Made by a program: the position numbers and the translations under genes. DNA of 64,000 nt, taken from assembly GCA_024761205.1 (NCBI GenBank), contig JAMASS010000025.1, positions 1 through 64,000 on the forward strand, read 5' to 3'. The notes beneath the pieces were generated by a model. That model had not been told where the DNA came from and made no database searches. It was given only the letters and a program-made list of their open reading frames with translations. Source of the DNA: Limisphaerales bacterium. Its GTDB lineage: Bacteria; Verrucomicrobiota; Verrucomicrobiia; Limisphaerales; AAA164-E04. Every line of letters begins with the position of its first letter. Positions within the stretch are counted from its first letter, which is position 1. Shown here piece by piece: positions 4,010 to 47,233 of this stretch.

Positions 4010-4645
4010 TTAAGACTCCGAAGACCCTCTAAACTCTTCCATCGTCGCCGAACTCTCCGCGCTAATCCCATCCCGTTTCAGCACACAAACCACCGTCCTC
4101 AGCAATATTTTAATATCCAGCACTAAATTTCTGTTTTCGACATACCACACATCCAGTTCCAGCCGTTCATCCCACGACAAAGAGTTTCTTCCATTGACCT
4201 GAGCCCAACCCGTCAATCCCGGATACACCTTGAGTCGTTTAATTTGGCGATCATTGTACCGCTCAACATACCGGAGAAGCAGCGGCCTAGGTCCTATGAG
4301 GCTCATATCGCCCCGAAGAACATGGATCAACTCAGGCAGCTCATCCAACGACAAGGACCTCAACCGCCTGCCAAAACCACTCAACCGAGCCTCGTCCGGT
4401 AGCAGCCTTCCCCTTTCATCCCTCTTGTCCGACATCGTCCGAAATTTAATTAACTCAAATGGCCGACCACCTAATCCGGCCCTCATTTGCCGAAAGAATA
4501 TCGGCCTCCCTAAGTTCCAGAAAACCAGCACCGATAGCACTCCAATCAGCGTCCCCCACAAGGGAGCGAAGATGATGGCAACCGAAAGATCGAAAACGCG
4601 ACGCTTAAAAATCATGCTGCGCAACGATATAAGCGGGCTTGGCAC
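4010..4645 (-). CDS. Priming sugar-phosphate transferase (bacterial sugar transferase family)
   Basis: Small polyprenyl-phosphate sugar-1-phosphate transferase that starts repeat-unit assembly on the lipid carrier at the inner membrane. The 211-residue length matches the minimal PglC-like class with one membrane hairpin (residues 19-45). Signature motifs are KFRTM (67-71), the catalytic acidic pair in DELPEL (101-106), LIGPRP (116-121) and PGLTGWAQVNGRNSL. Start taken is a GTG at 4645 preceded by GGGG at good spacing; an ATG at 4615 is the alternative. The sugar substrate cannot be read from the sequence. Downstream of the acyl module and KAS III remnant, on the same strand. Confidence 0.92.
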   Translation of the reverse strand: MPSPLISLRSMIFKRRVFDLSVAIIFAPLWGTLIGVLSVLVFWNLGRPIFFRQMRAGLGGRPFELIKFRTMSDKRDERGRLLPDEARLSGFGRRLRSLSLDELPELIHVLRGDMSLIGPRPLLLRYVERYNDRQIKRLKVYPGLTGWAQVNGRNSLSWDERLELDVWYVENRNLVLDIKILLRTVVCVLKRDGISAESSATMEEFRGSSES

Positions 4646-4755
4646 TTAACCCCAAAGTCTCGTTTACATCGGACTTGCATCACAAATTCCCCCGATTCTC
4701 GAGAGCATGGCACCACCGTAGGCGTAGGTACAAACGGAACCCGCGTTCCCTTAGG

Positions 4756-5401
4756 TCACTCCACAAGCGTCGCTCCCCAAGATAATCTACGCCAAACGCC
4801 ACTAGCACCACTCACATCCCCGTCCGGAGTCAGCCCTTCAACCAAGCATCCGTCAAGGCGATGGCCACTGTCGAACCGCCAGACCTCGGCTCCCGAAGAC
4901 CGCATCGGCGGCCATGAGGAGACGATGCTCTCTCCCATCAGTGCCCAGTGAAAAATCAACAAAGCTTCCAGACGCTCCCGCCGAGGCCTTTACCAAAAAA
5001 GCTGCCCCCGCACCCCAAAATAAAGGAACGACCGCCCCGATCCTAAGAATGGAGGATACGACTCACCCTATCGCCGGTCAGCACCAGCGCAGTTTTCGCG
5101 AGCCCGGCCTTAATTGTAAGCATGAGAAATCACCAGCGAATAGAGATATTAAAAACACAACCTAGATAGATCTCGAACGCTCCCAACGACATGCTCAGCC
5201 CGATTCGCTCCTAGAAGATGCAAGCGGTGGCCGGCAGCAAATAATCCGATGTCTGCGTCGCGAAAAGCAGCAGGTCGATTTCGCTCCGATCAACATCCAA
5301 TGTTCCATCGCATCCCGGCCAAACCGTTCGTTAAACTCTTCATAAGACAATCGCCGCTCCGTCACGCAGTAGGATGTTGCTGCAATCTTTGACCTTTTCA
5401 T
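4756..5401 (-). pseudogene. Broken 3-oxoacyl-ACP synthase III (KAS III/FabH-like)
   Basis: Following the minus strand across three frames recovers pieces of a KAS III in the correct order. From ATG 5401 comes RSKIAATSYCVTERRLSYEE. Next, shifted, is DLLLFATQTSDYLLPATACI, then a TAG, then GAFEIYLGC holding the expected active-site Cys. After further shifts come KTALVLTGDRVSRILHS, VVPLFWGAGAAFLVKASAG and DFSLGTDGREHRLLM. The ending is VVLVAFG and, in another frame, LSWGATLVE with a stop at 4756. At 646 bp it is about 300 bp short of a normal gene, and the part that would hold the catalytic His and Asn is missing. It starts 16 bases after the LuxE-LuxC stop, so it was once part of that operon. 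The protein cannot be functional. Confidence 0.82.
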
Positions 5402-5417
5402 CGCATCCGATCGCCAC

Positions 5418-7961
5418 TCAGCACGGGCCGCCGACGGTGATCCATTTAACCAACCGATCCATCGGAAACAGTCCGTCCCAAGGAGAATCAAAAAAAGTCA
5501 TTCTTCCGACATCAGGAAATCGTTCCGCTCCCCTCAACGCCGCCTCCCGGACGTATTGCAGTCGCCGCTCGCCCTCAACGGCCAGCCCGATTGTTTGGAC
5601 GCCTGAACTGGCGTAGCTGGCCGTAGACAAGATATCGTCAACAGCACGGACCGAAACCACCCGTGAGTACACCGGATCGGCCAGTCCGCTGACTGATTCT
5701 CCGTCATAGAGAACAGTCCAATCCGAGCCCTCTGACCTCCAATAATCTCCGGTCAGCTCATAGCGCAAACGCACGGATTCGATCTGCGCCTCCGTGGCGG
5801 AATCAGCAGGCGCCTTAGGTATTCGGACCAACGCTTTCTGCATTTCCTCAGACAACCGCTCAGCAAACTCCTTGGCACTGACCGCGCCCCCTCGCTCCAC
5901 AAAGATGGTGTGCGGTGACGCACAGGCGTACTGATCAAACACTGAAGCGTCGGTAGCAGCCCGCCGCAGCGTGCGTTTCTGTTTGCGCCCGCCATCCAGA
6001 TATTCGCGACCAATGGCCATATACGACAATTTCGGGCCAAAGAAAATGTCCTCAGCCCAGAGGCTGCGCGGGAGCTGCATCACACTTTCGATCGACTCCC
6101 GCCCCCCCCAGGCTACCCGGACATCCGCCACCTCGGAAAACGCAGTTGCGCTAGCCAAGTCCTCTCTCGGGAAATAGACCACTGCCAAGGCTCCCAACAC
6201 ATCGTTGCCGCGCAACGTCCGCCCACTAGGCGCTTTCACCTCAAGATCTCGGAACATATCCAGCAGGGATGGAAGCACACTGGAGAAGGAATTCGCCGTC
6301 TTCAACAGATTGGCATTCCGGGTCAAAATGCCTTGGACCAAAGCCAACATCCCCAACAGGGGAACATTTCCCGCAAGCCAATGCGCCACCAAACCACGCG
6401 GACGAGCGAACACCAAACGACGATTCGTGCTCTCAAAACTCTGCGGCCCATCCATCACCCCTCGAATCCCTCGGAACGAAAGATCGGCCACCCGCCGCAT
6501 CGAACCGGCTCGGCACCAACTGCTGAGGAATTGCAGACCCTGCGTTCTTAGAGGAAACAGTCGGGAATCCGGAGACATCCACCTTTGCGCCGTCCGATCC
6601 ACCAGCAGAATCAATTCGTCGATTGAGTACTGATCCAGAACGGTACGCCGCTCCCTGACCCTCGCAGCCAACGCCCGCAGATCCTCTACCCTTGGTAGTT
6701 TTCCAAGTATAATGGGACCATCGAGATTCTCCGGACAGTAGTTACCGTCTAAATCAAAAAGGAGCCTTGCATCGCTCACCTTGCCCGAGTCCGTGGCGGC
6801 TCGGTGCCTGCGGGACGCCGGAGCAATCTTGTCGCTCATAACATCGCCGCACCCTCGTGGTCCCGCCTCCTTCACCCGGCCCAACACCTCAAAACGCTTG
6901 CACGTCCAACCATCCTCATCCGTCTCCCCGCTGGATTCGTGCACCACCCCAACGTCATCGGTCAAGACCGCCAAGCCAGGATATGAATAGGGCAGGGGAG
7001 TGACAAACTCCAACAAACCCTCTTGTCCCGCTGGCAAAACCTCATGGTTGACAGGATTGCGAACAATCACGTCTGAAAAAACCGGAACACACTTCAAGCC
7101 AGACCGACCATCCGGATAGGTGACACCCATTTGCTCCGTGAACCCATAAAAATCCACCACCGACCCCGGATCGATCGAGAATAGATTGGCCATGGTCTCG
7201 TTAAAAACCTCTTTCGAAACCTGCTGGTCCTTTAATTTCTTCCAGCCGCCAATATGCACGACCTTCGAGCCCGCCGGCAGCGCAAACCGCGCCCCAGAGT
7301 CCATCAAGGGCTTTGCTCCGTAAACATAGAGCACAAAGGTAAATCCAAAGACACAGACAGGCTCGCTATAATTCGCCAGACCCTCCAGCTCCCTCTCCAG
7401 AACTTCTTTATTTGGCAACAGTCTCCCGTCAGGGTTGAGATCCATCACATAGCGCACCTCACAGGCTAGATTCAGAAATCCACGGACTGCGGCATTTCTC
7501 GCGCCCAACGCAGCCGCACCCACCACTCTCGGATTAGCATCAAACACCAGAAACGGCCGTCGTCTGCCGCCCAATGCCGCGCCCATCACCGCAGCCAACG
7601 CTTTGATCTGCCGCTTTGACGTGATTTTATCCACGGCCACGATACTAGGTCGCCCGTTAGTGGCCGAAGAACTTAGTGTCATGCGCACCTCATCCGCTGC
7701 TACAGATCGGAGCAGATCCGAATACTCCTTGAAGACCTGCACCGATAAAAACGGCAGATCCTCCGGGCGATCAAACCGAGCGTCGGCGCCAAACCCACGT
7801 CGCTCGCAGAATTTCCGGTAAGCCGAGCACGACCGGAAGTGATGACCGTAGCTTTCATTGACAGCCTCCAAGTACATATCTCGACCAGCCTGTCCCTGCC
7901 AAGCAAACGGATGCAGCTTCAGGAGCGCGTCCATGGCGTTCTTTTCTGTTACAGCTACCAT
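5418..7961 (-). CDS. LuxE-LuxC fusion: acyl-protein synthetase + acyl reductase
   Basis: 847-residue two-domain protein. Residues 1 to about 378 are LuxE-like (acyl-protein synthetase, related to PaaK), with an SSSATNGRPS motif at 97-106 in place of the usual SSGTTG, HIGGWKK at 237-242 and DFYGFTEQMG at 270-279. Residues from about 440 to 847 are LuxC-like acyl reductase of the aldehyde-dehydrogenase superfamily, with GNVP at 531-534 and the probable catalytic Cys680 in DQYACASPH. In luminous bacteria the two are separate proteins that activate and reduce fatty acids to aldehydes. Here they are fused and no LuxAB is present, so light production is not implied. The start overlaps the alcohol dehydrogenase stop by 7 bases. 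Predicted role: reduction of a small or fatty acyl group to an aldehyde for EPS modification. The acyl chain is unknown. Confidence 0.88.
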   Translation of the reverse strand: MVAVTEKNAMDALLKLHPFAWQGQAGRDMYLEAVNESYGHHFRSCSAYRKFCERRGFGADARFDRPEDLPFLSVQVFKEYSDLLRSVAADEVRMTLSSSATNGRPSIVAVDKITSKRQIKALAAVMGAALGGRRRPFLVFDANPRVVGAAALGARNAAVRGFLNLACEVRYVMDLNPDGRLLPNKEVLERELEGLANYSEPVCVFGFTFVLYVYGAKPLMDSGARFALPAGSKVVHIGGWKKLKDQQVSKEVFNETMANLFSIDPGSVVDFYGFTEQMGVTYPDGRSGLKCVPVFSDVIVRNPVNHEVLPAGQEGLLEFVTPLPYSYPGLAVLTDDVGVVHESSGETDEDGWTCKRFEVLGRVKEAGPRGCGDVMSDKIAPASRRHRAATDSGKVSDARLLFDLDGNYCPENLDGPIILGKLPRVEDLRALAARVRERRTVLDQYSIDELILLVDRTAQRWMSPDSRLFPLRTQGLQFLSSWCRAGSMRRVADLSFRGIRGVMDGPQSFESTNRRLVFARPRGLVAHWLAGNVPLLGMLALVQGILTRNANLLKTANSFSSVLPSLLDMFRDLEVKAPSGRTLRGNDVLGALAVVYFPREDLASATAFSEVADVRVAWGGRESIESVMQLPRSLWAEDIFFGPKLSYMAIGREYLDGGRKQKRTLRRAATDASVFDQYACASPHTIFVERGGAVSAKEFAERLSEEMQKALVRIPKAPADSATEAQIESVRLRYELTGDYWRSEGSDWTVLYDGESVSGLADPVYSRVVSVRAVDDILSTASYASSGVQTIGLAVEGERRLQYVREAALRGAERFPDVGRMTFFDSPWDGLFPMDRLVKWITVGGPC

Positions 7962-9100
7962 GACCTTTCGAGCATCTCGGCCAACAGATCATCAGTCACC
8001 GCAACAGGATTGGCCCGAGCACAGATATCCGCATGAGCGCCTTCGAACACCAATCGAGTTTGGGCGGGAGAAAGCTCCCGAGTTGAGGACAGATTGGCCA
8101 AAGACGATGAAAACTCAAGTTTCGCCTTCAACTCCGAGATCACTGCGTTCAAACCCTCTACACCGCTCACACTCAAGCTACTGGCAAGCCTAGCGTATCT
8201 TCTCGCGACTATCTCATCTCTCAGATTGATCGAGACGCTCGCTTGCAGCAGCCCGCCGCAAGCCATTCCGTGGGCGATGCCAAACAGACCCAGCTGATGC
8301 GCTAAGGCATGCCCGATTCCCGGTACCTTTAGATTCTGGACCCATCCTGCCATCAACGCCGCAACCATCATCTCCAGCCGAGCCTCCATATCCTCTGGAT
8401 CATCGACCGTCTGAGGTAGCAACCGAAGGATGATCTCAACACTTTTCTCCGCCTGAATGTCCGCCATCGGGTTAGAAAACTTTGAAACATACGACTCGAC
8501 AGAATGAGCCAGTGCATCCATGCCAGCGGCAATCAAAGCAGCGCGCGGGACATTGACCGTTAGTTTCGGATCCAAAATTGCAATGTCAGGGATCAGTTCA
8601 TGGGAAACAATCGCTCGTTTCCGCCCGTCCTCGTCGCCTGTGATGACCGCCGCCGAGCTGACCTCGGATCCCGTGCCCGCAGTCGTGGGCACAGCGACGA
8701 AACGGCTCCTCCCCCGCAGCTGCCTCAAAGCAAACGGCCGGCTCAGCGCCTCAAAATCCGTCTCGGGGTGCTCATAAAGAATCCAAGCCAACTTGGCTCC
8801 GTCCAAAACCGAACCTCCACCAATTGCGATGATCCAATTGGGTTGCGCCTGACTCATTCCCTCGGCCACAGCCGCAACACTTGTCAGGTTAGGCTCTCCC
8901 CCTGGATACTCCAAAACACTTAGTTTCAGATGATTGACCGCTCGCTCAATCTCACTCCGATGATGCCGCAGGACCGAGCGGGAAGCCACCACCGCCACGT
9001 CAACGCCATCGAGCGTCCGCAGCGCCGAGAGGCTGCCCTTACCGTGCAAAATTTCGCCGGCTCCAAAAAATCTTGGGATGGGTAAACGTAGCCGTAACAC
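7955..9100 (-). CDS. Iron-containing alcohol dehydrogenase
   Basis: 381-residue group III alcohol dehydrogenase. The cofactor region shows GGGSVLD (94-100) and GTGSEVS (142-148). The four metal ligands expected for the family are present: Asp195 and His199 in GMDALAHSVE, His264 in GIGHALAHQLG and His277 in GIAHGMACGG. Placed between the AMP-ligase (1-base gap) and the LuxE-LuxC fusion (7-base overlap), it most likely interconverts the aldehyde made by the LuxC domain and the alcohol. KdnB, which oxidises KDO in Shewanella, belongs to the same superfamily, so an ulosonate role is an alternative. The operon position favours the acyl pathway. Confidence 0.88.
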   Translation of the reverse strand: MLRLRLPIPRFFGAGEILHGKGSLSALRTLDGVDVAVVASRSVLRHHRSEIERAVNHLKLSVLEYPGGEPNLTSVAAVAEGMSQAQPNWIIAIGGGSVLDGAKLAWILYEHPETDFEALSRPFALRQLRGRSRFVAVPTTAGTGSEVSSAAVITGDEDGRKRAIVSHELIPDIAILDPKLTVNVPRAALIAAGMDALAHSVESYVSKFSNPMADIQAEKSVEIILRLLPQTVDDPEDMEARLEMMVAALMAGWVQNLKVPGIGHALAHQLGLFGIAHGMACGGLLQASVSINLRDEIVARRYARLASSLSVSGVEGLNAVISELKAKLEFSSSLANLSSTRELSPAQTRLVFEGAHADICARANPVAVTDDLLAEMLERSW

Positions 9101-9101
9101 C

Positions 9102-10664
9102 CTAAGTGTCCTCCCCGACCCAACGACTCCGAATCAACTTTGCCAGTTCAACCCGCTTCGCCTTTCCGGTATTCGCTCGCGGAATGGCATCCACTCGTTC
9201 AAACACCGCCGGTACTTTAAACTTTTCCAACTGTCGCAAACAATGAGTCTCCAGTGCACCAAAATCAAACGGCTCCACCTCCACGACAACACCAGCAACG
9301 ACCGACTCCCCTGTCACCCCTCCCACGCCCTCGATACCAACAACGCCAACGTCGCCAACACCGGGATAAGCCTCGATCACCTTCTCCACCTCCGCCGGAT
9401 TGACCTTGTAACCCCCGACATTAATAAAATCTTTCTTTCGTCCGGTGAGAAAAAGGTGCCCCTGTTCATCTTTGTAGCCCAAATCTCCCGTGTAAAGCCG
9501 TCCATTCTTGAAAACAGCACGATTCAATTCTTCATTCCGCCAATAGCCGGAAGTTACCGTCGGGCCACTGATCGCCACCTCCCCGGACTCGCCCGGTGAC
9601 TGTCCCTGGCCATTAGAATCCAAAACCTCAATCTTAACACCATCCATGCTTCTGCCCACTGAGGCATAGTAATTCGGCCCTTTGCTAGTCAGCGAAATGA
9701 AGGTCGAGCGCGAAACCTCCGTCAGACCATAATAAACCATGATATCGAGGTTCGGCAGCAACGCTTGGAGTTGGGCCGTTCGCTCCGGCGGCAAGGGAGC
9801 CGAATTGATGACCGAAAATCTCAAATGCTGCCCTCTCTGCCTTAAGACCTCTCCATACTTGTCGATGAGGATCCCAAACCCAGTCGGTGTCCCCGGAAAC
9901 CCGGTCGCACCAAATTCGGATAGCTTCTTCAAGACCCGCCCCACTCTTGCCATTCCGTTTTCCGTGTAAACGCCGCCGCCGCTGATCAAATTACAATACA
10001 GGTGCCCCAGACCAAAATTGTGAGACAGCGGGAGGATGATTACCTCGCGATCCTGCTCGGTATAGCCGATGAATCGAGTGATATTAGTGAGCGTCGCGTG
10101 AATATTGCGGTGAGTTAACGGAACCCCTTTGGCACCTCCCGTCGTGCCGGTCGTATACATGAGACTTGCCACCGCGTCATCCTGAACCTGCATATCAGCA
10201 CCCACATCCCTGGAGTCATCGGCCAGGGCGTCCTCAACAGAACGGCAGTTCGTATTTTTGTCATCCGAATCCATCGCGCCGAAGACCAAGATTCCTTCCA
10301 AACCCAGCGGCTCCGAATCCAGACAAAGACGCTTCAACGACAAAGCGTCTGTCACCAACACACGCGGCTCACAATTTCGGTAAATTCCAGTAAGGCTCTT
10401 CCGAGTAATCGCCGAATCACAAGGCACGCTAATGGCGCCAGCTGACAAAATGCCGAAGTGCGCCTGCGTAAATCGGACCGAATTCGGCAGCACCACTAAC
10501 ACGCGATCACCCACCTCAACGCCTATTTCACACAACAGATTAGCAAATCTGGCCGCCGCCGTCGCAAGTTGGACATAGCTCAACTCAGTGTCCGGATCAC
10601 TCACCGCGACCTTATCACCGAACCTCTCGGCCCCCTGCCGAACAATATCAGGAACCATCCACAT
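9102..10664 (-). CDS. AMP-dependent acyl ligase (ANL superfamily)
   Basis: 520-residue adenylate-forming enzyme that activates a carboxylic acid as acyl-AMP and passes it to a thiol, here probably the phosphopantetheine arm of the adjacent ACP. Motifs: P-loop TTGTTGGAKG (171-180), YYGLTEVSR, the hinge region GDLGYKDEQGH followed by GRKKDFINVGGYKVNP, and the C-terminal catalytic Lys in ANTGKAKRVEL. It begins 12 bases after the ACP gene and ends 1 base before the alcohol dehydrogenase start. The substrate is not predictable by eye; medium-chain acids, hydroxy acids and amino acids are all possible for this family. Confidence 0.9.
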   Translation of the reverse strand: MWMVPDIVRQGAERFGDKVAVSDPDTELSYVQLATAAARFANLLCEIGVEVGDRVLVVLPNSVRFTQAHFGILSAGAISVPCDSAITRKSLTGIYRNCEPRVLVTDALSLKRLCLDSEPLGLEGILVFGAMDSDDKNTNCRSVEDALADDSRDVGADMQVQDDAVASLMYTTGTTGGAKGVPLTHRNIHATLTNITRFIGYTEQDREVIILPLSHNFGLGHLYCNLISGGGVYTENGMARVGRVLKKLSEFGATGFPGTPTGFGILIDKYGEVLRQRGQHLRFSVINSAPLPPERTAQLQALLPNLDIMVYYGLTEVSRSTFISLTSKGPNYYASVGRSMDGVKIEVLDSNGQGQSPGESGEVAISGPTVTSGYWRNEELNRAVFKNGRLYTGDLGYKDEQGHLFLTGRKKDFINVGGYKVNPAEVEKVIEAYPGVGDVGVVGIEGVGGVTGESVVAGVVVEVEPFDFGALETHCLRQLEKFKVPAVFERVDAIPRANTGKAKRVELAKLIRSRWVGEDT

Positions 10665-10676
10665 AAAGTCGTTTTC

Positions 10677-10919
10677 CTACCGGCCCTTTTGGCCGATGTA
10701 GTCCTTGGTCTTCTCGACCAAATCCGCCACAGTTTCAATATCCGTCGCATCCACAACATCGAACAAAATGCCAAAACGCTCCTCAATCGCCATCAGAAGG
10801 TTGACATGCCCCACTGAATCCCACGCCGGGATATCGCCGACCGCCAAGTCTTCGTTGTATACCGCTGCGTCTATCTTTAGTTGCTTGAGCACGACGCCCT
10901 TAACTTCCTCTTCAATCAT
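10677..10919 (-). CDS. Stand-alone acyl carrier protein
   Basis: 80-residue acidic helical protein with the phosphopantetheine attachment Ser35 in PAWDSVGHVNLLMAIEERFG. It is not the housekeeping AcpP, because it sits in the EPS locus directly ahead of an acyl ligase and has the DSVGH signature seen in ACPs of specialised clusters. Its ATG overlaps the stop of a preceding ACP-like or other remnant as ATGA, indicating an ancestral co-translated gene pair. Predicted to carry the acyl group between the AMP-ligase and the LuxE-LuxC reductase. Confidence 0.9.
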   Translation of the reverse strand: MIEEEVKGVVLKQLKIDAAVYNEDLAVGDIPAWDSVGHVNLLMAIEERFGILFDVVDATDIETVADLVEKTKDYIGQKGR

Positions 10920-11068
10920 AACCGTTCTCGTTCACTTGCAGACAAAGCCACAAGCCTTGCTGCGCCGAGGCTCTCAAAACTGTATAAGTCCGCATCCTGC
11001 ACTATTGGAGCCGGTTTCGCACCAACAATCTCGGCAACCACTTCCAAAATTTCATTAACGGAGGCATA
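10916..11068 (-). pseudogene. Remnant reading frame, possibly a second ACP-like domain
   Basis: A 50-codon frame without its own start codon reads YASVNEILEVVAEIVGAKPA, then DADLYSFESLGAARLVAL and SASERERL, then a TGA that overlaps the ACP start as ATGA. The DADLY...SLGAARLV pattern resembles the helix II region of an ACP. The part before it also resembles the C-terminus of sugar epimerases, so the family is uncertain. Upstream (about 11069-11160) a different frame reads ELSGLDLDEKRDWVVLAM, which may be the frameshifted tail of the NeuD-like gene or of this remnant. It is most simply a decayed gene that was coupled to the ACP gene. Confidence 0.4.
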
Positions 11069-11142: not shown

Positions 11143-11820
11143 TCAAGACCGCTGAGCTCTCGAATGGAGCAGAGTCCGGCTAGGAGGCCCTACCACCGTC
11201 GAGAAAGGCTCCAGGCTTCGAGACGCAAAAGCATTGGCGCCCAGCGTGGCACCCTGCCCAACCGATTTTCCCGGTTGAATGCTCGCATTGGAACCGATGA
11301 AGGCCAACTCCCCAATCTTGCACCAGCCGTTGACCCTCGCCCCCGGACACACTTGGGCAAAATCGCCAATGACCGAATGATGCCCGACGCCCGCCAAAAT
11401 GTTGACAATGGCAAATGCGCCAATCTTGGCCATCGGCGCCACGACGCTTCCCGCGCTAACAAACGCTCCCGGCCCGGCCGAGGCGGAATGATGGAACACG
11501 ACCGAAGGGTGAATCAAAGTCGCCCCTTGAAACCCCCGACCAGTAATGAGTTTGGCCACCCGCTGACGACTGACGTTATTGCCGATCGCGCAATGAAAAT
11601 ACACCTCCCGATCGAGATCGCGACACACCTCTTCCGTTGTGCCCAATATCCGATAACCACAGAATGCCTCCCCCTTTTTATCCAGATTGTCATCAGCGAA
11701 ACCCAATACTTCCCAAGTGTATTCCATGGTTTCACTCTGGTTTATATCCTCAGTCAACCAAAGAGCCTCCATTCCGTAGCCACCGGCGCCAACGATCACA
11801 AGTTTCCGAACGGTCTTCAT
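11143..11820 (-). CDS. NeuD-like sugar O-acetyltransferase (hexapeptide repeat)
   Basis: 225-residue protein with an N-terminal Rossmann-like segment (VIVGAGGYGMEALWL, residues 9-23) followed by a left-handed beta-helix of hexapeptide repeats, the NeuD/PglD architecture that acetylates sugars using acetyl-CoA. It is predicted to decorate an EPS precursor in the cytoplasm. The glycosyltransferase gene ends 53 bases upstream. The C-terminus (RTLLHSRAQRS) departs from the usual short VGVPA-type end, and another frame stays open just after it, so a small C-terminal frameshift is possible. Confidence 0.85.
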   Translation of the reverse strand: MKTVRKLVIVGAGGYGMEALWLTEDINQSETMEYTWEVLGFADDNLDKKGEAFCGYRILGTTEEVCRDLDREVYFHCAIGNNVSRQRVAKLITGRGFQGATLIHPSVVFHHSASAGPGAFVSAGSVVAPMAKIGAFAIVNILAGVGHHSVIGDFAQVCPGARVNGWCKIGELAFIGSNASIQPGKSVGQGATLGANAFASRSLEPFSTVVGPPSRTLLHSRAQRS

Positions 11821-11873: not shown

Positions 11874-13103
11874 TTAATCCCGGCCCGGCACCAGCCGATA
11901 TAGCAACTCCCCAAACTTCCTCGCATGGACCGATCGGTCAAAATTCCTGACCACGCCGTCGCGAGCCGCTCGCCCCATAGCCGCACATAGCTCCGGATCT
12001 TGCCGCAACCGCTGAATCGCCGCACTCAAGGCGCCGGAATCTCCAGGCGGCACGAAAATGCCAGCCTCAGCTTCCTCAATCACTTCTCGAATCACGCCGT
12101 CGATTCCTAACACTGTCGGTCGTCCCGCAGCCATGTAATCGAAAACCTTGTTCGGATAAGGCGCTCGAAACATGGGAATATCACGCAGCGTCGCCAAACA
12201 AACATCGGAGGCAGCCAATACCTCCGGCATCCTTGATTTTGGCATAGCCCCTGTGAAGGTGACATTGGTCACCTTCAGTTCGGCAGCCAACTCCTTCATT
12301 TTTCCTAGCTCCTTCCCATCGCCAACAATCGCCACATGGATACCTTCATCGGACATGAGGCCCCTGGCCGCCCGAAGAATGTTGGGAATATCGTTCGCCA
12401 TGCCAACGGCCCCCGCATAAACCACCAAAAACTTGTCCTCCAAATCCCATTCGCGTCGAAACGCCTCGCCACACGCGTTGGGGTCGAACATCTGGGGATT
12501 GACCCCATTCGGAATGAGCGTGACCTTGTTGGCATCGACGTCCTTCTGCTTAGTCAAATACTTTTTATAGGCTGGAGAATTCACCATCAAGTGCTCGCTC
12601 TGCCAATATAAAAACCGCTCTAGCAATCGAGCGATACCGATTAATATCGGATTCTTTAAGATGCCGATATCAATCGCAAACTCCGGCCAAAGATCTCGCA
12701 CTTCGAAGACAAACGGCCGCCTTCTCAACAGAGCAACCACCCATGCCGACAACGCCTGAAAGATCGGGGGAGACGTCCCCATGACCAGATCGACCGGCCC
12801 GGCTCGCAGCCCTGCCCATACCGACGTCACCATAAAACTCAGAAAAGACAAGGTTCGCCAAAAAAAGGATCGATGCAGCGTGGCCAACGTTCTGGCCCGC
12901 AGAATTCGCACCGGCCCGCGCTTTTCTTCGGTAATCAAGCCGGGATTCTCGATAACGCTCTTCCCCGTCAGATAAGTCAGATTGCTGGCAACGATAGTAA
13001 ACTGAATCCCCTGCTTCTCACAATGGGACGCCAGCTCAAAATGACGCGTCCCCCCCGCCTCCTCGGGAGCCACAAACGTCTGGTGGATCAACACAACCTT
13101 CAT
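11874..13103 (-). CDS. Glycosyltransferase, GT4-type
   Basis: 409-residue retaining glycosyltransferase of GT-B fold. The N-terminal domain begins MKVVLIHQTFVAPEEAGGTR. The C-terminal domain has NGVNPQMFDP, VYAGAVGMANDIPNIL, VAIVGDGKEL and the donor-site region PNKVFDYMAAGRPTV with conserved acidic EEAEAG nearby. The start chosen is ATG 13103, which overlaps the heparinase-like gene stop as ATGA; the longer open frame to 13211 is inside that gene and is rejected. It adds one sugar to the lipid-linked repeat; donor and acceptor are unknown. Confidence 0.9.
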   Translation of the reverse strand: MKVVLIHQTFVAPEEAGGTRHFELASHCEKQGIQFTIVASNLTYLTGKSVIENPGLITEEKRGPVRILRARTLATLHRSFFWRTLSFLSFMVTSVWAGLRAGPVDLVMGTSPPIFQALSAWVVALLRRRPFVFEVRDLWPEFAIDIGILKNPILIGIARLLERFLYWQSEHLMVNSPAYKKYLTKQKDVDANKVTLIPNGVNPQMFDPNACGEAFRREWDLEDKFLVVYAGAVGMANDIPNILRAARGLMSDEGIHVAIVGDGKELGKMKELAAELKVTNVTFTGAMPKSRMPEVLAASDVCLATLRDIPMFRAPYPNKVFDYMAAGRPTVLGIDGVIREVIEEAEAGIFVPPGDSGALSAAIQRLRQDPELCAAMGRAARDGVVRNFDRSVHARKFGELLYRLVPGRD

Positions 13104-20897: not shown

Positions 20898-22013
20898 TCA
20901 ACTGACCTCAAAAGCCCTAACAGTATCGATGACTCTTTGTTGCTCGCGCTCGGTCAATTCGACATGCACCGGCAATGAAAGCAGCTCATCGCCAAGCTTA
21001 TCTGCGCGGGGCAATCTGTAATCCGCCTTGAAAAGGTCAAGCTGGTGATTGGGGCGATAATGAACACCACTCTCGATGCCCGCGCCGGAAAGATGGGCGC
21101 ACAACTTATCTCTTCGCCCCCCAAGAACTCGGATCACGAAGATATGGGGAATGATGTTGCCTTCTTCCAAGTTGAGCAAGCGAATCGCCGGGAAAGTCCC
21201 CAGCGCCGAGCGATAACCTTTTCCAATTCGCTGACGAGATTCGCCAAATCGATCGATCTTGCGTAGTTGCGTTCGCCCGACAGCCGCCATCAAATCGCTC
21301 ATATGGTAACGATAACCCGGGTGAAGCACATTGAATTGCCAGCTGCGCTGTGACTGATACCGCTTTTGAGTGTCTTTCACTACGCCCAGTAGCCGGGCAT
21401 CGCGAATTCGTTCCGCTAACTTTTTATCCCCGGTCACGACGGCGCCACCCTCTCCGGAAGTAATGTTTTTAATACCGTCGAAACTGAAACACACCACATC
21501 CCCATCAGCACCGATCCGTTGGCCATCCCGCCGGCAACCAAAGGCGTGCGCAGCGTCTTCGATTACACGCAGTCTATGCCTGGCGGCAAAGCGATATACC
21601 TCCGGAATTCCAGAGCCATCACTGGCATAATGCACCGGCATGACCGCTCGGGTCCTCTCCGTGACTCGCTGTTCGGCATCCTTAAGATCTAAGAATACTT
21701 TGTCTTCAGTGACATCACAAGCCACCGGTCTCGCTCCCGTCGCCGTCACCGCTTGAAACGACGCAACATACGTGATGCTCGGCACGAGAACCTCATCGCC
21801 AGGACCGATATCGAGACATTGAAGCGCTAGATGGAGCGCCGCCGTTCCGGTATTAACACACACCACTTCACGATCGAAACCAATGTAGGACCGCAGCTCC
21901 TGCTCAAAGGCCTCAACCTCCGGCCCCATCCCGAGATACCCCCGATCAATGACTCTTGCCAGAGCCGCTTTCTCCTCGTCTCCCACCGACGATCTTGAAA
22001 GTCTGATTCTCAT
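20898..22013 (-). CDS. DegT/DnrJ/EryC1-type sugar aminotransferase (CDP-sugar set)
   Basis: 371-residue PLP-dependent aminotransferase for keto-sugar nucleotides. The internal-aldimine Lys is in SFDGIKNITSGEGGA; RfbH and ColD, which act on CDP-sugars, carry His at this place, so this enzyme should perform ordinary transamination and not 3-deoxygenation. Other signs are NTGTAALHLAL and EDAAHAFG. It ends the CDP-sugar run RfbF-RfbG-cupin-aminotransferase (20898-24394), so a CDP-amino-6-deoxyhexose is the predicted product. The cupin gene stops 7 bases upstream. Confidence 0.9.
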   Translation of the reverse strand: MRIRLSRSSVGDEEKAALARVIDRGYLGMGPEVEAFEQELRSYIGFDREVVCVNTGTAALHLALQCLDIGPGDEVLVPSITYVASFQAVTATGARPVACDVTEDKVFLDLKDAEQRVTERTRAVMPVHYASDGSGIPEVYRFAARHRLRVIEDAAHAFGCRRDGQRIGADGDVVCFSFDGIKNITSGEGGAVVTGDKKLAERIRDARLLGVVKDTQKRYQSQRSWQFNVLHPGYRYHMSDLMAAVGRTQLRKIDRFGESRQRIGKGYRSALGTFPAIRLLNLEEGNIIPHIFVIRVLGGRRDKLCAHLSGAGIESGVHYRPNHQLDLFKADYRLPRADKLGDELLSLPVHVELTEREQQRVIDTVRAFEVS

Positions 22014-22020
22014 GATTCAT

Positions 22021-22467
22021 TTAATCTGGCCAAGCAACCGGGATGGCCTCCAAGTCACAATTTTCCGCCTCCGCAGGGTCGTGCTCCTCGTCGATGGTGT
22101 TGCATAACAGATTCAGATTCGGTCCCAGACCTTGGAATGCCACCCACAGTCTCGGCGCCACAGTCAGTCGTGAATACTCGTCCAATCCCAGCAAAATCTC
22201 CTGAAAACGCCCTTTGGTCGCGCTCCCCTGTCGATCATCATACACCATGAAACGCATCCTGCCCACGGGAACAACGATGTTCAACGTCACCCGGTGATGT
22301 CGTTTCCACCCCTTAGTGGCGCCGAAGACTACAGTAGAAAAGTAGGTCTCTCCAAAAGCGACAAACCCCGGACTTGATCGCTTAAGCACATGGAATAAAT
22401 CGCCTTTGGGCTTCTCAATCCGTTTTTCCGGGTACAGATTGACCCCATCAATATTCACACTGTCCAT
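22021..22467 (-). CDS. RmlC-like cupin, probable CDP-sugar epimerase
   Basis: 148-residue single-domain protein resembling the dTDP-4-dehydrorhamnose 3,5-epimerase family: YFSTVVFGATKGWKRHHRVT carries the His cluster, followed by LNIVVPVGRMRFMVYDD. It overlaps the RfbG gene by 13 bases and precedes the aminotransferase, so it probably epimerises the CDP-4-keto-6-deoxyglucose made by RfbG. It is shorter than typical RmlC (about 180 residues). Ketoisomerase activity is an alternative. Confidence 0.75.
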   Translation of the reverse strand: MDSVNIDGVNLYPEKRIEKPKGDLFHVLKRSSPGFVAFGETYFSTVVFGATKGWKRHHRVTLNIVVPVGRMRFMVYDDRQGSATKGRFQEILLGLDEYSRLTVAPRLWVAFQGLGPNLNLLCNTIDEEHDPAEAENCDLEAIPVAWPD

Positions 22468-23576
22468 ACCCGGGCGCGATCTGCAGCTGTCTTCTCATAA
22501 TGCGCAATCTGACTTTCCGTCATTTGGAACATATCGGTCTCGCCTTTGTAGAAAGCGTAGTGCCAACCACCCACCAATTGGATCATTTCGTCATAGGACA
22601 GATTCGGCTCCCAACCCAAATGAAAGAGCGCCTTATCACAATTCAACTTCAGCAGACCCGCTTCATGGAACGGAATGTTTCCCGTCACTCGGAAGACGTC
22701 ATCTGTCTGCTCAAATCCCCAAATATAGCTCAAATCTTTCAACAGTTCTAATACTGTTCTGCTCTGCTCTGCTCGAGGACCGAAGTTAAAGGCCTCTCCA
22801 GACAGTTCCGTTTCTGTCCGGAGGCCAGCACCCAGAGTGAGATACCCGCTGATAGGTTCCAAAACATGCTGCCAAGGGCGAGTGGCACTCGGGCTGCGAA
22901 TCTCCACGCTTCGCCCTTCGCTCCAAGCGCGCATGCAATCGGCCACTATCCGGTCCTTCGACCAGTCCCCTCCGCCAATGACGTTGCCTGCTCTGCCGAC
23001 TCCAAGGCGCACAGGGCAATCCTTGGCCGAGAAAAACGAATGAAAATAGGATTTGATAATGACCTCCGCGGCGCCCTTTGATCCGCTGTAAACATCTTTA
23101 CCACCGATGGCGTCCGTCTCCCTATACCCCCAAACCCACTCGACGTTGTCATAGCACTTGTCGCTCGTAATCAACACGACCACGCAAGGCCAGTCTGCTT
23201 CCCGCAGAGATTCCAAAAGATTCATGGCACCCAGGACATTGGTGGAGACCGTCCCGACCGGATCCTGATACGATACGGAAACAATCGCTTGAGCAGCCAA
23301 ATGAAAAACAAAATCGGGCTTCTCGCGCGCGACGATCTCACGGATGGCAGACAAATCGCGGACATCTGCAAAGTGATGACAAATACGACCCTCAAGCCCC
23401 AGCTCTTTGAACATCGCCGGCTCGGTTAAGATTTCCCGCGATATTCCGACGACTTCGGCCCCCAATTTGAGCAACCATGCGGTCATCCAGCTCCCCTTAA
23501 AACCGGTATGCCCCGTCACCACAACTTTCTTTCCGTTATATCTTCCCTCAAACAATTTATTTCCACCCTTTCCCAT
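22455..23576 (-). CDS. rfbG: CDP-glucose 4,6-dehydratase
   Basis: 373-residue extended SDR that converts CDP-glucose to CDP-4-keto-6-deoxyglucose. Motifs: NAD-binding VVTGHTGFKGSWMTAWLLKL near residue 15, FHLAAQAIVSVSYQDPV, and the YSGSKGAAE active-site Tyr/Lys. The region RPWQHVLEPISGYLTLGAGL is typical of RfbG. It follows the cytidylyltransferase by 44 bases and overlaps the cupin gene, forming a clear CDP-sugar operon. Confidence 0.93.
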   Translation of the reverse strand: MGKGGNKLFEGRYNGKKVVVTGHTGFKGSWMTAWLLKLGAEVVGISREILTEPAMFKELGLEGRICHHFADVRDLSAIREIVAREKPDFVFHLAAQAIVSVSYQDPVGTVSTNVLGAMNLLESLREADWPCVVVLITSDKCYDNVEWVWGYRETDAIGGKDVYSGSKGAAEVIIKSYFHSFFSAKDCPVRLGVGRAGNVIGGGDWSKDRIVADCMRAWSEGRSVEIRSPSATRPWQHVLEPISGYLTLGAGLRTETELSGEAFNFGPRAEQSRTVLELLKDLSYIWGFEQTDDVFRVTGNIPFHEAGLLKLNCDKALFHLGWEPNLSYDEMIQLVGGWHYAFYKGETDMFQMTESQIAHYEKTAADRARVWTV

Positions 23577-23620
23577 AGTGTCTAGCAGAACTCACCAAAG
23601 TGGGTGGGCATTTTAGAATA

Positions 23621-24394
23621 TCACCAAGTCTTCCATTGTGGATCCGATCCCGCCCACATTGCTTCCAATTCGTTCCGATCACGCAGCGTGTCCATACACT
23701 TCCAAAAACCTTCATGCCGATAAGTGTAAAGCTCGCCGTCCCTTGCCAATCCTTCCAGCGGTTCCCTCTCCAGAACCGTGGCGTCTCCTAGGGTGATGTA
23801 GTCGAAGACGCTCACCTCACAGACGAAGAACCCGCCATTGACCCATGAGCCATCACCTCGTGGCTTCTCAAGAAATTTGTTCACCCGCTCCTTCTCATCC
23901 GCCTCAAAAGTGCCGAATCGTCCATCAGGCTGCACAGAGGTCATGGTCATCGCCTTGCCATGCTTCCGATGAAACTGCAGCAGTTTGTCAAAATTAACAT
24001 CACTCACCCCGTCCCCGTAGGTCAGCATGAAGGTCTCGTTCCCGACATACTCCTGAGCGCGTTTGACTCGCCCTCCGGTCATCGTATCCACTCCCGTATT
24101 CAGCAAGGTAATGCGCCAGGGTTCGCTGGTGTTGTGATACACATCGAGCTTACTAGTTTTGAGGTCGATCGTAACATCACTCTGATGAAGGAAATAGTTA
24201 GCGAAATACTCCTTAATATAATACCCTTTGTACCCCAGCAGTACGACAAATTCTCTGTACCCGTAGGAAGAATACATTTTCATTATATGCCATAAGATTG
24301 GCTTTCCGCCAATCTCAACCATCGGTTTGGGGCGGACATCCGTCTCTTCACCCAGGCGCGTGCCGAAGCCCCCTGCCAGCAGCAGTACTTTCAT
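23621..24394 (-). CDS. rfbF: Glucose-1-phosphate cytidylyltransferase
   Basis: 257-residue nucleotidyltransferase making CDP-glucose from CTP and glucose-1-phosphate. It begins MKVLLLAGGFGTRLGEETDV with the nucleotide-binding loop, followed by RPKPMVEIGGKPILWHIMK. Further conserved segments are TYGDGVSDVNFDKLL and EPLEGLARDGELYTYRH. The start overlaps the stop of the upstream glycosyltransferase by 4 bases. First step of the CDP-sugar branch. Confidence 0.95.
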   Translation of the reverse strand: MKVLLLAGGFGTRLGEETDVRPKPMVEIGGKPILWHIMKMYSSYGYREFVVLLGYKGYYIKEYFANYFLHQSDVTIDLKTSKLDVYHNTSEPWRITLLNTGVDTMTGGRVKRAQEYVGNETFMLTYGDGVSDVNFDKLLQFHRKHGKAMTMTSVQPDGRFGTFEADEKERVNKFLEKPRGDGSWVNGGFFVCEVSVFDYITLGDATVLEREPLEGLARDGELYTYRHEGFWKCMDTLRDRNELEAMWAGSDPQWKTW

Positions 24395-26762: not shown

Positions 26763-27539
26763 TCACGGCGTTTTCATGTAACCTTGCATCAATAAATCAC
26801 AGGCCATTTTCTGTTCGACGTTTTTCCGATCCTCCTCGGTGTCGACCGCATAGGTAGAATAAGAAGTCAGCACCATCTTAACCTGAAATCCATGCTCCAG
26901 AATTCGATTCATATCCACGGACTCGGCGATTTCTAATGGAGTTGGTTCCATCTCTAGATATTCAAATAAAAAATCCCGCTGGAACGGTATAATACTAACC
27001 TGTTTGAGCATCCGAATGTCACCATCCGTCTTTTTTCGAGACGGGATAGGTTCGCGCGAAAAATAAAGTGCGTTGCTGTTGCGATCAGCAACGACCTTTA
27101 CTTCATTCGGATCCTCATGCTCATCCCGTGAATTCATTTCCGCCATGAGATTGACAACCTTGATCGATTTGTTCTCAAGCATTGGCAACATCGCCTCGTC
27201 GATCATTTCGGGACGCACCATCGGTTCATCACCTTGCACCATGACAACAATATCGACACGCTCGTTGCTGCTCGCCTCAATCTTCTGAACCGCCTCAGCA
27301 GTCCGATCAGAACAGCGCTTATGACTATCCTTTGTCATTATCGCCTTTCCTCCCACGCTTTCGATATAGTCGTAGATATCCTGATCACAGGTGGCAACGT
27401 ACACTTCCGAGAGTCTCTTAGCCATTTTTGTCCGGAAGTAGCAGTGCCCGATCATCGGAATACCGTGGATCTTAGCCAATGGCTTGTTTGGAAAACGAGA
27501 GGACGCTAGGCGCGCCGGTAAGACTGCTATATTATTCAT
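26763..27539 (-). CDS. KdsB-like CMP-ulosonate cytidylyltransferase
   Basis: 258-residue nucleotidyltransferase of the KDO cytidylyltransferase family: PARLASSRFPNKPLAKIHG for CTP binding, HKRCSDRTAEAV, and MVQGDEPMVRPEMID with the metal-binding Asp. Housekeeping KdsB is usually unlinked to EPS genes. Here the start abuts the stop of an HpcH/HpaI aldolase (TGA immediately followed by ATG), so the pair probably makes and activates an unusual 3-deoxy-ulosonate for the EPS. The sugar remains unknown. A second possibility is simple duplication of the LPS enzyme. Confidence 0.85.
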   Translation of the reverse strand: MNNIAVLPARLASSRFPNKPLAKIHGIPMIGHCYFRTKMAKRLSEVYVATCDQDIYDYIESVGGKAIMTKDSHKRCSDRTAEAVQKIEASSNERVDIVVMVQGDEPMVRPEMIDEAMLPMLENKSIKVVNLMAEMNSRDEHEDPNEVKVVADRNSNALYFSREPIPSRKKTDGDIRMLKQVSIIPFQRDFLFEYLEMEPTPLEIAESVDMNRILEHGFQVKMVLTSYSTYAVDTEEDRKNVEQKMACDLLMQGYMKTP

Positions 27540-28328
27540 TCAATTAGAACCAGATTTGGCGATCCGTGAGAGTCCTTCTCTTGCCTTGTTGCTCACAAAG
27601 AGATAATCAACCCCGTACGCAATCATTTGATACCCTTCGTCAATTCGCCGTTGCAAATCTTCGGGAACCGGCTGAACGACATGGATTCCCGACATGGTGC
27701 CGGTCTTTTCTTTGACCTGGAGAATCGAATTCAAGGCTTCCACCATTTTAGGATGATCGAATTCTCCGGGAATTCCTAGCGAAGCAGAAAGATCAAACGG
27801 CCCTATGAAAAAACCGTCAACACCCGGAACATTGATGATCTCCTCCATATTGCGCACGCCATCAATGTGTTCAATTTGAACAATCACCAGACTCTCCTCA
27901 TTGAGCCACCGATAATAACGATCGAATTCCTGAGCGTAGCCGTGTGCTCGAGAAAGTCCGACGCCACGAGTTCCCTTCGAGGGATATTTGACGGCGTCCA
28001 CTATATGGCGAGCCTCTGTCGCCGTATTAACGGTAGAAGCGATGATGCCATGCGCACCAGCATCCATCACCCGTTTGATCGTGTTAGCGTCGTGACTGCC
28101 AACTCGGACCAAGGCGTTAAGCCCCAACAGATCAATCACGCGAATCATCTCACCTGTGGTTTCCAAGCTCGTTACACTGTGCTCCAAATCTACAGTCAAC
28201 CAGTCGAAGCCAGCCCTTCCCAAAATCTCCGCAAGCGAAGGATGCGGGATGGTCAGCCATGATCCAATGGTAACACCGGAGAGAAACTCCGATCTCTTTG
28301 GCCTCCTGAATGCCGCTATTTCTCCCAT
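27540..28328 (-). CDS. HpcH/HpaI-type pyruvate aldolase
   Basis: About 262 residues of class II metal-dependent aldolase. Motifs: GSWLTIPHPSLAEILGRAGF, DWLTVDLEHS, LVRVGSHD, the metal-site region VQIEHIDGV and GVDGFFIGPFDLSASLG. These enzymes join pyruvate to aldehydes or cleave the products. Position directly before the KdsB-like gene suggests formation of a keto-deoxy sugar acid. The frame is open to 28496, but that upstream part looks unrelated, so the ATG at 28328 is used; start confidence is low because no good ribosome site precedes it and the family usually begins about 15 residues later. Confidence 0.82.
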   Translation of the reverse strand: MGEIAAFRRPKRSEFLSGVTIGSWLTIPHPSLAEILGRAGFDWLTVDLEHSVTSLETTGEMIRVIDLLGLNALVRVGSHDANTIKRVMDAGAHGIIASTVNTATEARHIVDAVKYPSKGTRGVGLSRAHGYAQEFDRYYRWLNEESLVIVQIEHIDGVRNMEEIINVPGVDGFFIGPFDLSASLGIPGEFDHPKMVEALNSILQVKEKTGTMSGIHVVQPVPEDLQRRIDEGYQMIAYGVDYLFVSNKAREGLSRIAKSGSN

Positions 28329-28592
28329 ATGTTTTCGCACTCGTCTGCGATTTGAGTCAATAAATCCAGATCGGTTCTCGTAAAGAGTAGCCCGCCGACT
28401 TGGGCGCATAGAATCAGCCGCCTGAACCTCTATCTGCCCAGGCAACAGGCAATTGTCATTTCCATGTCCCAAAATATCATCAACAACGCTTTTCAAATTT
28501 TCGTCAACCGATCTCCCTGATGCAAAATTTGCCCCACTACTGTGCCGGGATAGATCGTTTGAAGGTAAAAGCAGGGCGCGTGATTCCGTCCA

Positions 28593-45930: not shown

Positions 45931-46029
45931 CCTGTTAATAATCTGGGATCAGTCTGCTCACTGAGCGTTCAGAAATTCTCACATTCTTTTGTCAACGTTC
46001 TTTTCCCTTACTTCGTCCTTACGGTAATC

Positions 46030-46117: not shown

Positions 46118-47233
46118 ATGAAAATATCGATAGCCAAAGAACAACTCCTTGCTGGCTTGCAGGCAGTCCAGAATATCGTCTCTAGCCGGACGACCCTTCC
46201 GATCCTGTCAAATGTTTTACTGCATGCGGTGGGAAAGGAGCTGGTCCTGACGACGACAGATTTGGATATAACCATCTCGTGTGGCGTTGAAGCCATCGTG
46301 AAAAAGGGCGGATCGGTGACCCTCCCGGTGAAGAAACTTTTCGGGATCGTTCGAGAGTTAACCACACCAGAAATTGATTTAGAGGTCGACGAGAAAGGGA
46401 TTTGCTCCATTCGGGCAGGGGTGTCGTTTTTCAAGATTCATGGTCTGTCCGCAGATGAATTTCCTCCGCTGCCGAAATTTGCCGAGAAGAAGGAAATCAC
46501 TCTCGATCAAGGAACCCTGAGGTCCATTCTACGGAAGACATCTTATGCTGTATCGACGGAGGAAGCGCGGTATGTATTGAATGGGATATATTTCTGCTTG
46601 GGCGACCAAAGAATAACGGGGGTCGCTACGGATGGGCGTCGGTTGGCGTTGGTGGACGAGGAATCCGAAGTGGCAGAGGAGAGTAAGGGAGAGTTTATTG
46701 TGCCGACCAAGGCGATCAACGAGCTGAATCGGTTGTTGGGATCGGAAGGGAAAGTCGAGTTGCGGTATACGGACAATCAAGCGTCGTTTACGCTCAGCGG
46801 GAATGGGGAAGCGTCTGTCTTCTTGATGACCAAGCTAATAGACGGAAACTATCCGAATTATCGACAGGTCATCCCGGGGGAGAACAAAGAGAGAAAGAGA
46901 ATCGCACTGGAGAGAGAAGAGTTTCTGCGGGCGTTACGGCGGGCTGAGATTATGGCGAGTGAGAAAGCGAGCTCGGTAAAGCTGCAAATCACCAAAAACA
47001 ACGTTTTGATTACAGCCAATACTCCCGATGTTGGAGAGGCTAGGGAAAGCATCGCGATTAACTATGATGGAAACGAAATCGCGGTCGCTTTTAATCCTCA
47101 ATATGTGATGGATCCCTTAAAGGTTTTGGAGGAGGACGAGGTTTTTCTTGAGTTATCAGACGAACTCAGCCCGGGAGTCTTAAAGGTCAACGGACCGTTT
47201 CTTTACGTGATCATGCCCATGAGAATGAGCTAG
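46118..47233 (+). CDS. dnaN: DNA polymerase III beta clamp
   Basis: 371-residue sliding clamp with three repeated domains. MKISIAKEQLLAGLQAVQNI, RTTLPILSNVLLHAVGKELV and TTTDLDITI form domain 1; YVLNGIYFCLGDQRITGVATDG lies in domain 2; the C-terminus MDPLKVLEEDEV... ends LYVIMPMRMS, the canonical clamp end. A ring-forming processivity factor. Often adjacent to dnaA at the origin; dnaA is not in this window, so the two are separated here. Starts 59 bases after the TATCCA element. Confidence 0.97.
   Translation: MKISIAKEQLLAGLQAVQNIVSSRTTLPILSNVLLHAVGKELVLTTTDLDITISCGVEAIVKKGGSVTLPVKKLFGIVRELTTPEIDLEVDEKGICSIRAGVSFFKIHGLSADEFPPLPKFAEKKEITLDQGTLRSILRKTSYAVSTEEARYVLNGIYFCLGDQRITGVATDGRRLALVDEESEVAEESKGEFIVPTKAINELNRLLGSEGKVELRYTDNQASFTLSGNGEASVFLMTKLIDGNYPNYRQVIPGENKERKRIALEREEFLRALRRAEIMASEKASSVKLQITKNNVLITANTPDVGEARESIAINYDGNEIAVAFNPQYVMDPLKVLEEDEVFLELSDELSPGVLKVNGPFLYVIMPMRMS

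Follow-up and report, generated by a model that had tools for sequence, protein, structure and literature searches.

The stretch of DNA analysed here (the window) comprises 64,000 nucleotides of a Limisphaerales bacterium (phylum Verrucomicrobiota; assembly GCA_024761205.1, contig JAMASS010000025.1) and contains, within an exopolysaccharide (EPS) locus, a compact block of genes predicted to activate, reduce and load an acyl group onto a carrier protein. Base 1 of the window is the end of contig C18 of a 4.94-Mb draft genome, and the polysaccharide locus is therefore interrupted at that point. The block is transcribed from the minus strand in the order NeuD/PglD-type acyltransferase, acyl carrier protein (ACP), adenosine monophosphate (AMP)-forming ligase, iron-containing alcohol dehydrogenase (Fe-ADH), LuxE-LuxC fusion, remnant of a ketoacyl-ACP synthase III (KAS III), and PglC-type priming transferase. 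An initial annotation of the DNA had described five adjacent, tightly coupled genes, from the ACP to a KAS III remnant, between the NeuD-like gene and the priming transferase, and all of them were recovered in that position (Table 1).

Table 1. Features of the acyl-group gene block and associated genes in the window
Feature	Position	Strand	Support
NeuD/PglD/VioB-type hexapeptide sugar N-acyltransferase (putative RfbO/PglD role)	11143..11820	-	TIGR03570, 176 bits (cut-off 160.8)
Probable second-ACP remnant (ACP1 of the G157 locus)	10943..11050	-	36-residue match to L024 ACP1
Acyl carrier protein (putative RfbK-like role)	10677..10919	-	PF00550, 21.9 bits (cut-off 20.8)
AMP-forming acyl ligase (putative RfbL-like role)	9102..10664	-	PF00501, 243 bits; PF13193
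Iron-containing alcohol dehydrogenase (putative RfbM-like role)	7955..9100	-	PF00465, 114 bits; PF25137, 106 bits
LuxE-LuxC fusion, acyl-protein synthetase and acyl-thioester reductase (putative RfbN-like role), 847 aa	5418..7961	-	PF04443, 284 bits (residues 9-379); PF05893, 269 bits (residues 444-840)
KAS III (FabH-like) pseudogene	4755..5401	-	Four fragments, two frames, stops
PglC/WcaJ-type priming sugar-phosphate transferase	4010..4645	-	PF02397, 189 bits
DegT-type sugar aminotransferase, likely 4-amino-sugar source; same locus, non-adjacent	20898..22013	-	PseC/ArnB best NCBIfam matches, both below cut-off

In the core of the block, made up of four genes (ACP, ligase, Fe-ADH and LuxE-LuxC), ACP and ligase are separated by 12 base pairs (bp) and ligase and dehydrogenase by 1 bp, and the dehydrogenase and LuxE-LuxC genes overlap by 7 bp. 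The 223-bp gap separating the NeuD-type gene from the ACP gene contains the probable remnant of a further ACP. All four core genes and the NeuD-type gene are full length, in frame and tightly spaced and keep a coding base pattern; judged by sequence, they look functional, unlike the KAS III.

The LuxE-LuxC fusion retains the cysteines expected of both its parts. Cys371 of the LuxE part and Cys680 of the LuxC part are unchanged in the four copies compared; the former aligns with the KGCS cysteine of LuxE in the solved LuxC-LuxE complex 7xc6, and the latter, the conserved DQxAC active-site cysteine, aligns with LuxC of the same complex. A structure prediction of the fusion from a four-sequence alignment (predicted local distance difference test 47, predicted template modelling score 0.30) was not used. 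Fe-ADH carries the metal-site motifs MDALAH, GHALAH and IAHG, of which the Asp and His positions are kept in four loci, and the ligase possesses both the P-loop (MYTTGTTG...KG) and the C-terminal GK lysine. The WDS phosphopantetheine site (DS) is kept across the core ACPs compared, and the His of the VGHH motif in the NeuD/PglD-type enzyme is invariant in five loci. The nearest solved structures to the latter enzyme are VioB, PglB/PglD and perosamine N-acetyltransferase, and those to the DegT aminotransferase are ArnB, the 2oga transaminase and perosamine synthetase. For the ligase they are oxalyl-coenzyme A (CoA) and malonyl-CoA synthetases, with 4-hydroxybutyrate-CoA ligase also among the matches; this closeness to oxalate and malonate ligases is weakly suggestive of a small polar acid. 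The initial annotation was right in proposing that this polysaccharide locus houses a route devoted to activating and reducing acyl groups.

In approximately 970 genome searches across the order, class and phylum (some genomes counting twice), the core block was found, besides the window genome, in four more Verrucomicrobiota genomes, designated G157, G359 (whose contig appears to be that of L003), G531 and G736, which argues that its order and spacing are not due to chance. In all five carriers the core lies in the same order together with NeuD/PglD-type and PglC-type genes, and an intact KAS III occurs in G157 alone. LuxE-LuxC identity among the carriers is 52-58%, and the priming transferase is 52-56% identical to its counterpart in related loci. 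In G157, G359 and G736, genes of the PglE and PglF types come after the block, so that all four Pgl types (PglF, PglE, PglD, PglC) stand beside it; in G531 an aminotransferase is present and then the contig ends. In G531 a glyoxalase-fold (PF13669) gene (L040:9775-10224) separates the priming transferase from NeuD, and an open reading frame (ORF) in that place in G736 (L065:7864-8337) looks alike. The cassette is patchily distributed, since no other searched genome of the window organism's genus or family carries it. A single-protein scan of genome contigs gave one relative, whereas viral contigs gave none, a DNA search of E. coli genomes gave no match, and plasmids and phages gave no close match, the phages yielding one weak LuxE-like match.

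In a LuxE tree, the block copies cluster with G429 and with LuxE proteins of other glycan loci, namely a Deinococcus plasmid EPS locus and a Nonomuraea stretch that also contains a NeuB gene. LuxE-LuxC pairs from elsewhere fall outside this group; that split is well supported, the inner forks less so. Matches to LuxC are nearly universal in the order. The window genome itself has a second LuxC on contig C46 (L026:5027-8156, G000), preceded by a LuxE-like gene and accompanied, by eye, by a 6-pyruvoyl-tetrahydropterin-synthase-like gene; it was rejected as a copy of the module, as the remaining module genes are absent there and the neighbouring LuxE-like protein falls in a different part of the tree. 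On Azospirillum and Priestia plasmids (L043:11464-17305, L045:9479-15315), LuxE-like and LuxC genes precede those for an ABC transporter with its binding protein and for a short-chain dehydrogenase/reductase (SDR), forming a separate conserved set.

KAS III, which the initial annotation recognised as a remnant and listed with the other genes, is not part of the core, being a pseudogene in the window and absent from three of the four related loci. Compared with the intact KAS III of G157 (L024:11931-13028), the pieces in the window correspond to residues 1-30, 70-154, 156-187 and 295-339. They run from 5401 to 4755, are spread over two frames and are interrupted by several stops; no sequence for residues 188-294 remains. 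The G157 locus, ordered NeuD, ACP1, SDR, ACP2, ligase, Fe-ADH, LuxE-LuxC, KAS III, aminotransferase, priming transferase and PglF, explains this remnant. The window ACP corresponds to ACP2 of G157 (52% identity), while the probable scrap in the NeuD-ACP gap occupies the same place as ACP1, just as the dead KAS III occupies the G157 position. The score of the scrap with ACP1 was reached by 1 of 500 dinucleotide shuffles and other ACPs score near the shuffles, although the scrap gives only 13.2 bits to PF00550, below the cut-off. A remnant of SDR was sought in the NeuD-ACP gap and not found, and no trace of ACP1, SDR or KAS III was detected near the block in G359, G531 and G736. The dead KAS III and the probable ACP1 scrap therefore indicate that an extra chain-extension part has been lost and the core kept. 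The system thus has two parts, a core (ACP2, ligase, dehydrogenase, LuxE-LuxC) and an optional extension (ACP1, SDR, KAS III), of which the window retains the core alone; the extension would once have been present in an ancestor of the window copy.

The closest published counterpart of the core is the rfbKLMNO (wbeKLMNO) set of Vibrio cholerae O1. VC0248-VC0252 are the tetronate genes of this organism, whose O1 antigen is perosamine N-acylated with 3-deoxy-L-glycero-tetronate, and deletion of wbeL (rfbL) abolishes the O antigen (PMC3441752). VC0249 is RfbL, which activates 2,4-dihydroxybutanoate (2,4-dihydroxybutanoic acid) and has been proposed to load the carrier RfbK (PMC12208996); that VC0248 is RfbK follows from the published reports taken together. 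RfbN contains a LuxE domain (PMC4772473), and pieces of RfbN are listed in a V. vulnificus genome close to an ACP and an acetyltransferase of the PglD type (PMC11264103). Both the V. cholerae set and the window contain a carrier protein, an AMP-ligase, an iron alcohol dehydrogenase and a LuxE-containing acyl reductase, adjacent in the order K-L-M-N, with a sugar acetyltransferase-type gene beside the four and a surface polysaccharide locus around them. LuxE and LuxC form one protein in the window, and V. cholerae RfbN is annotated with both activities.

By analogy, the window block is probably a Verrucomicrobiota version of this cassette, in which one carboxylate is reduced and the resulting hydroxy acid is carried on ACP and amide-linked to a 4-amino sugar. 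What the sequences show directly is which genes are present, in what order and how intact they are, together with their conserved active-site motifs and their repeated association with 4-amino-sugar genes; the reaction order, substrate, product and sugar are what we infer. The LuxE part would activate a small carboxylic acid as acyl-AMP, take the acyl group onto its C-terminal cysteine and hand it to the cysteine of LuxC, which would reduce it to an aldehyde; Fe-ADH would convert this to a primary alcohol, yielding a hydroxy acid. The AMP-ligase would then activate the remaining carboxylate and load it on the dedicated ACP. The presence of two carboxylate-activating systems, LuxE-LuxC with the dehydrogenase and ligase with ACP, suits such a route from a dicarboxylic acid to a hydroxyacyl-ACP. 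Malate is the starting acid in the proposed V. cholerae tetronate pathway, and by analogy only, L-malate might here be converted to 2,4-dihydroxybutyrate (3-deoxytetronate). Subsequently, the NeuD/PglD-type enzyme would join the hydroxy acid, through an amide bond, to a nucleotide-linked 4-amino-4,6-dideoxy sugar at its amino group, a natural last step given that its nearest solved relatives are 4-amino-sugar N-acyltransferases, and the priming transferase would place the acylated sugar on the lipid carrier.

Several points weigh against this assignment. The V. cholerae tetronate pathway is itself reportedly a proposal from sequence, made by Morona et al. in 1995, and membership in the rfbKLMNO type is argued from gene content, order and published annotation rather than from sequence alignment. 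The acyltransferase gene precedes ACP in the window, whereas it follows RfbN in V. cholerae, and a dead KAS III adjoins the block. Finally, no PglF-type large protein accompanies the PglD-type, PglC-type and DegT enzymes of the window locus.

Candidates for the acceptor sugar in the window are cytidine diphosphate (CDP)- or guanosine diphosphate (GDP)-linked 4-keto sugars made nearby, as a CDP-glucose 4,6-dehydratase, a GDP-mannose 4,6-dehydratase and the DegT enzyme, nearest to ArnB, PseC and perosamine synthetase types, lie near the block. Glucose-1-phosphate cytidylyltransferase, CDP-glucose 4,6-dehydratase, a 148-aa ORF and the DegT aminotransferase stand in a row at 20898-24394, possibly for a CDP-linked amino sugar. 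Elsewhere in the window, a HpaI/GarL-type aldolase adjoins a KdsB-type cytidine monophosphate (CMP) transferase (26763-28496), suggesting that a CMP-activated ulosonic acid is made in the locus. Exosortase (XrtA/EpsH-like) and EpsI-like genes occupy the contig end (235-1939), and EpsI-like genes seem, by eye, to lie beside the block in G359, G531 and G736 as well. The guanine-cytosine skew changes sign at 46000, beside a DnaN-like gene (46118-47233, by eye).

One alternative concerns the substrate only and stays within the proposed mechanism: the same cassette logic may serve another acid, for example succinate converted to 4-hydroxybutyrate in place of malate converted to tetronate. Fe-ADH partially matches 4-hydroxybutyrate dehydrogenase (183 bits, far short of the cut-off of 500), the ligase matches 4-hydroxybutyrate-CoA ligase among others, and flagellin glycosylation islands and the Deinococcus EPS locus use an SDR in the place of Fe-ADH; the 4-hydroxybutyrate enzyme matches, however, are general to their families, and this substrate is a possible but rather unlikely choice. 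It is improbable that the product is a free aldehyde or alcohol, derived from an acyl group and linked unchanged (by ether, ester or acetal) to the polysaccharide or its lipid. LuxE, LuxC and alcohol dehydrogenase are indeed the enzymes expected for turning an acid into an alcohol, but this would leave ACP and ligase without a task, the block is always accompanied by an N-acyltransferase of the 4-amino-sugar family, and an N-linked hydroxy acid is the product to which the matched V. cholerae set has been assigned. The initial annotation had favoured an aldehyde or alcohol attached to the EPS or to its lipid; the likelier product is a hydroxy acid carried on ACP, which the NeuD/PglD-type enzyme would join as an amide to a 4-amino sugar.

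A fatty-acid-synthase-like route, in which KAS III, SDR and ACP build the acyl group and LuxE-LuxC and the dehydrogenase merely adjust it, draws on G157, where ACP1, SDR and an intact KAS III surround the core, and on the Pseudomonas syringae viosamine island, where 3-hydroxybutyryl viosamine is ascribed to vioS, vioR, vioB and acp. With KAS III a pseudogene and SDR gone in the window, and neither gene traced near the block in three related loci, it is largely refuted for the window and deserves very little credence. Decay of the whole module without present function in the window organism is likewise highly improbable: KAS III is dead and the second ACP reduced to a scrap, but the four core genes and NeuD keep their frames, spacing, checked active-site motifs and coding base pattern. 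A bioluminescence role was dropped, in agreement with the initial annotation, since the NCBIfam LuxE and LuxC equivalog cut-offs were missed (88.8 versus 550 bits and 86.8 versus 750 bits) and no luxAB was noticed among the window ORFs, no profile search having been made for these genes; a general fatty alcohol or wax role was considered and dropped as well.

Read as a tetronate-type cassette, the block would place a cassette of the cholera O1 antigen in environmental Verrucomicrobiota, tied to bacillosamine-type priming sugars, and supplies five loci that can be compared to work out substrate and acceptor. In G157, a viosamine-island-like set (ACP1, SDR, KAS III) is joined with a tetronate-like core (ACP2, ligase, Fe-ADH, LuxE-LuxC) (L024:5344-6605, 11931-13028). 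This two-ACP locus is a mildly novel twist and, together with the decayed remains in the window, suggests how acyl groups may change by module loss. More speculatively, some Verrucomicrobiota such as G157 might couple the tetronate-type cassette to ACP1, SDR and KAS III and so lengthen the hydroxy acid to a previously undescribed longer polyhydroxy acyl group, the window organism having lost the extension and making the short form; we regard this as a tentative and doubtful idea.

Several other known systems share parts of this gene set. In Aeromonas, Enterobacteriaceae and Dickeya, flagellin glycosylation islands contain acp, fabG, an AMP-synthetase, luxE and luxC (PMC7874193, PMC4875605, PMC7575072). 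As in the window, ACP, ligase, LuxE and LuxC stand there beside amino-sugar genes; unlike in the window, LuxE and LuxC are listed as separate genes, SDR/FabG replaces Fe-ADH, and the target is a flagellin glycan. The plasmid EPS locus of Deinococcus sp. NW-56 (L042) likewise brings together a sugar transferase, ACP, ligase, LuxE, LuxC and a NeuD-like acyltransferase at 28-34% identity to the window (56% for the sugar transferase), although an SDR replaces Fe-ADH and LuxE and LuxC are unfused. In Flavobacterium psychrophilum, whose O-antigen structure has been solved, a PglD homologue has been proposed to move a hydroxyacyl group from a dedicated ACP onto uridine diphosphate-Qui2NAc4N (PMC6519341); the R-group genes wfpC-G share this pair with the window, but the acyl group is made by ketoacyl synthases and a reductase, and LuxE-LuxC is not mentioned. 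The P. syringae viosamine island (vioA, B, S, R, acp) resembles the additional part of G157 in its KAS III, SDR, ACP and VioB acyltransferase, with no ligase, Fe-ADH or LuxE-LuxC reported. V. cholerae O1 differs in that its genes serve a perosamine O antigen, whereas the window, from another phylum, has an exosortase-linked EPS locus, a PglC-type priming enzyme and a KAS III remnant. The suggestion that no such set had been described, and that the block represents an undescribed system, is nevertheless incorrect, because the published V. cholerae O1 tetronate genes match it in set and order and related sets occur in flagellin glycosylation islands; by this analogy, the cassette is best regarded as a known kind of pathway in a new home.

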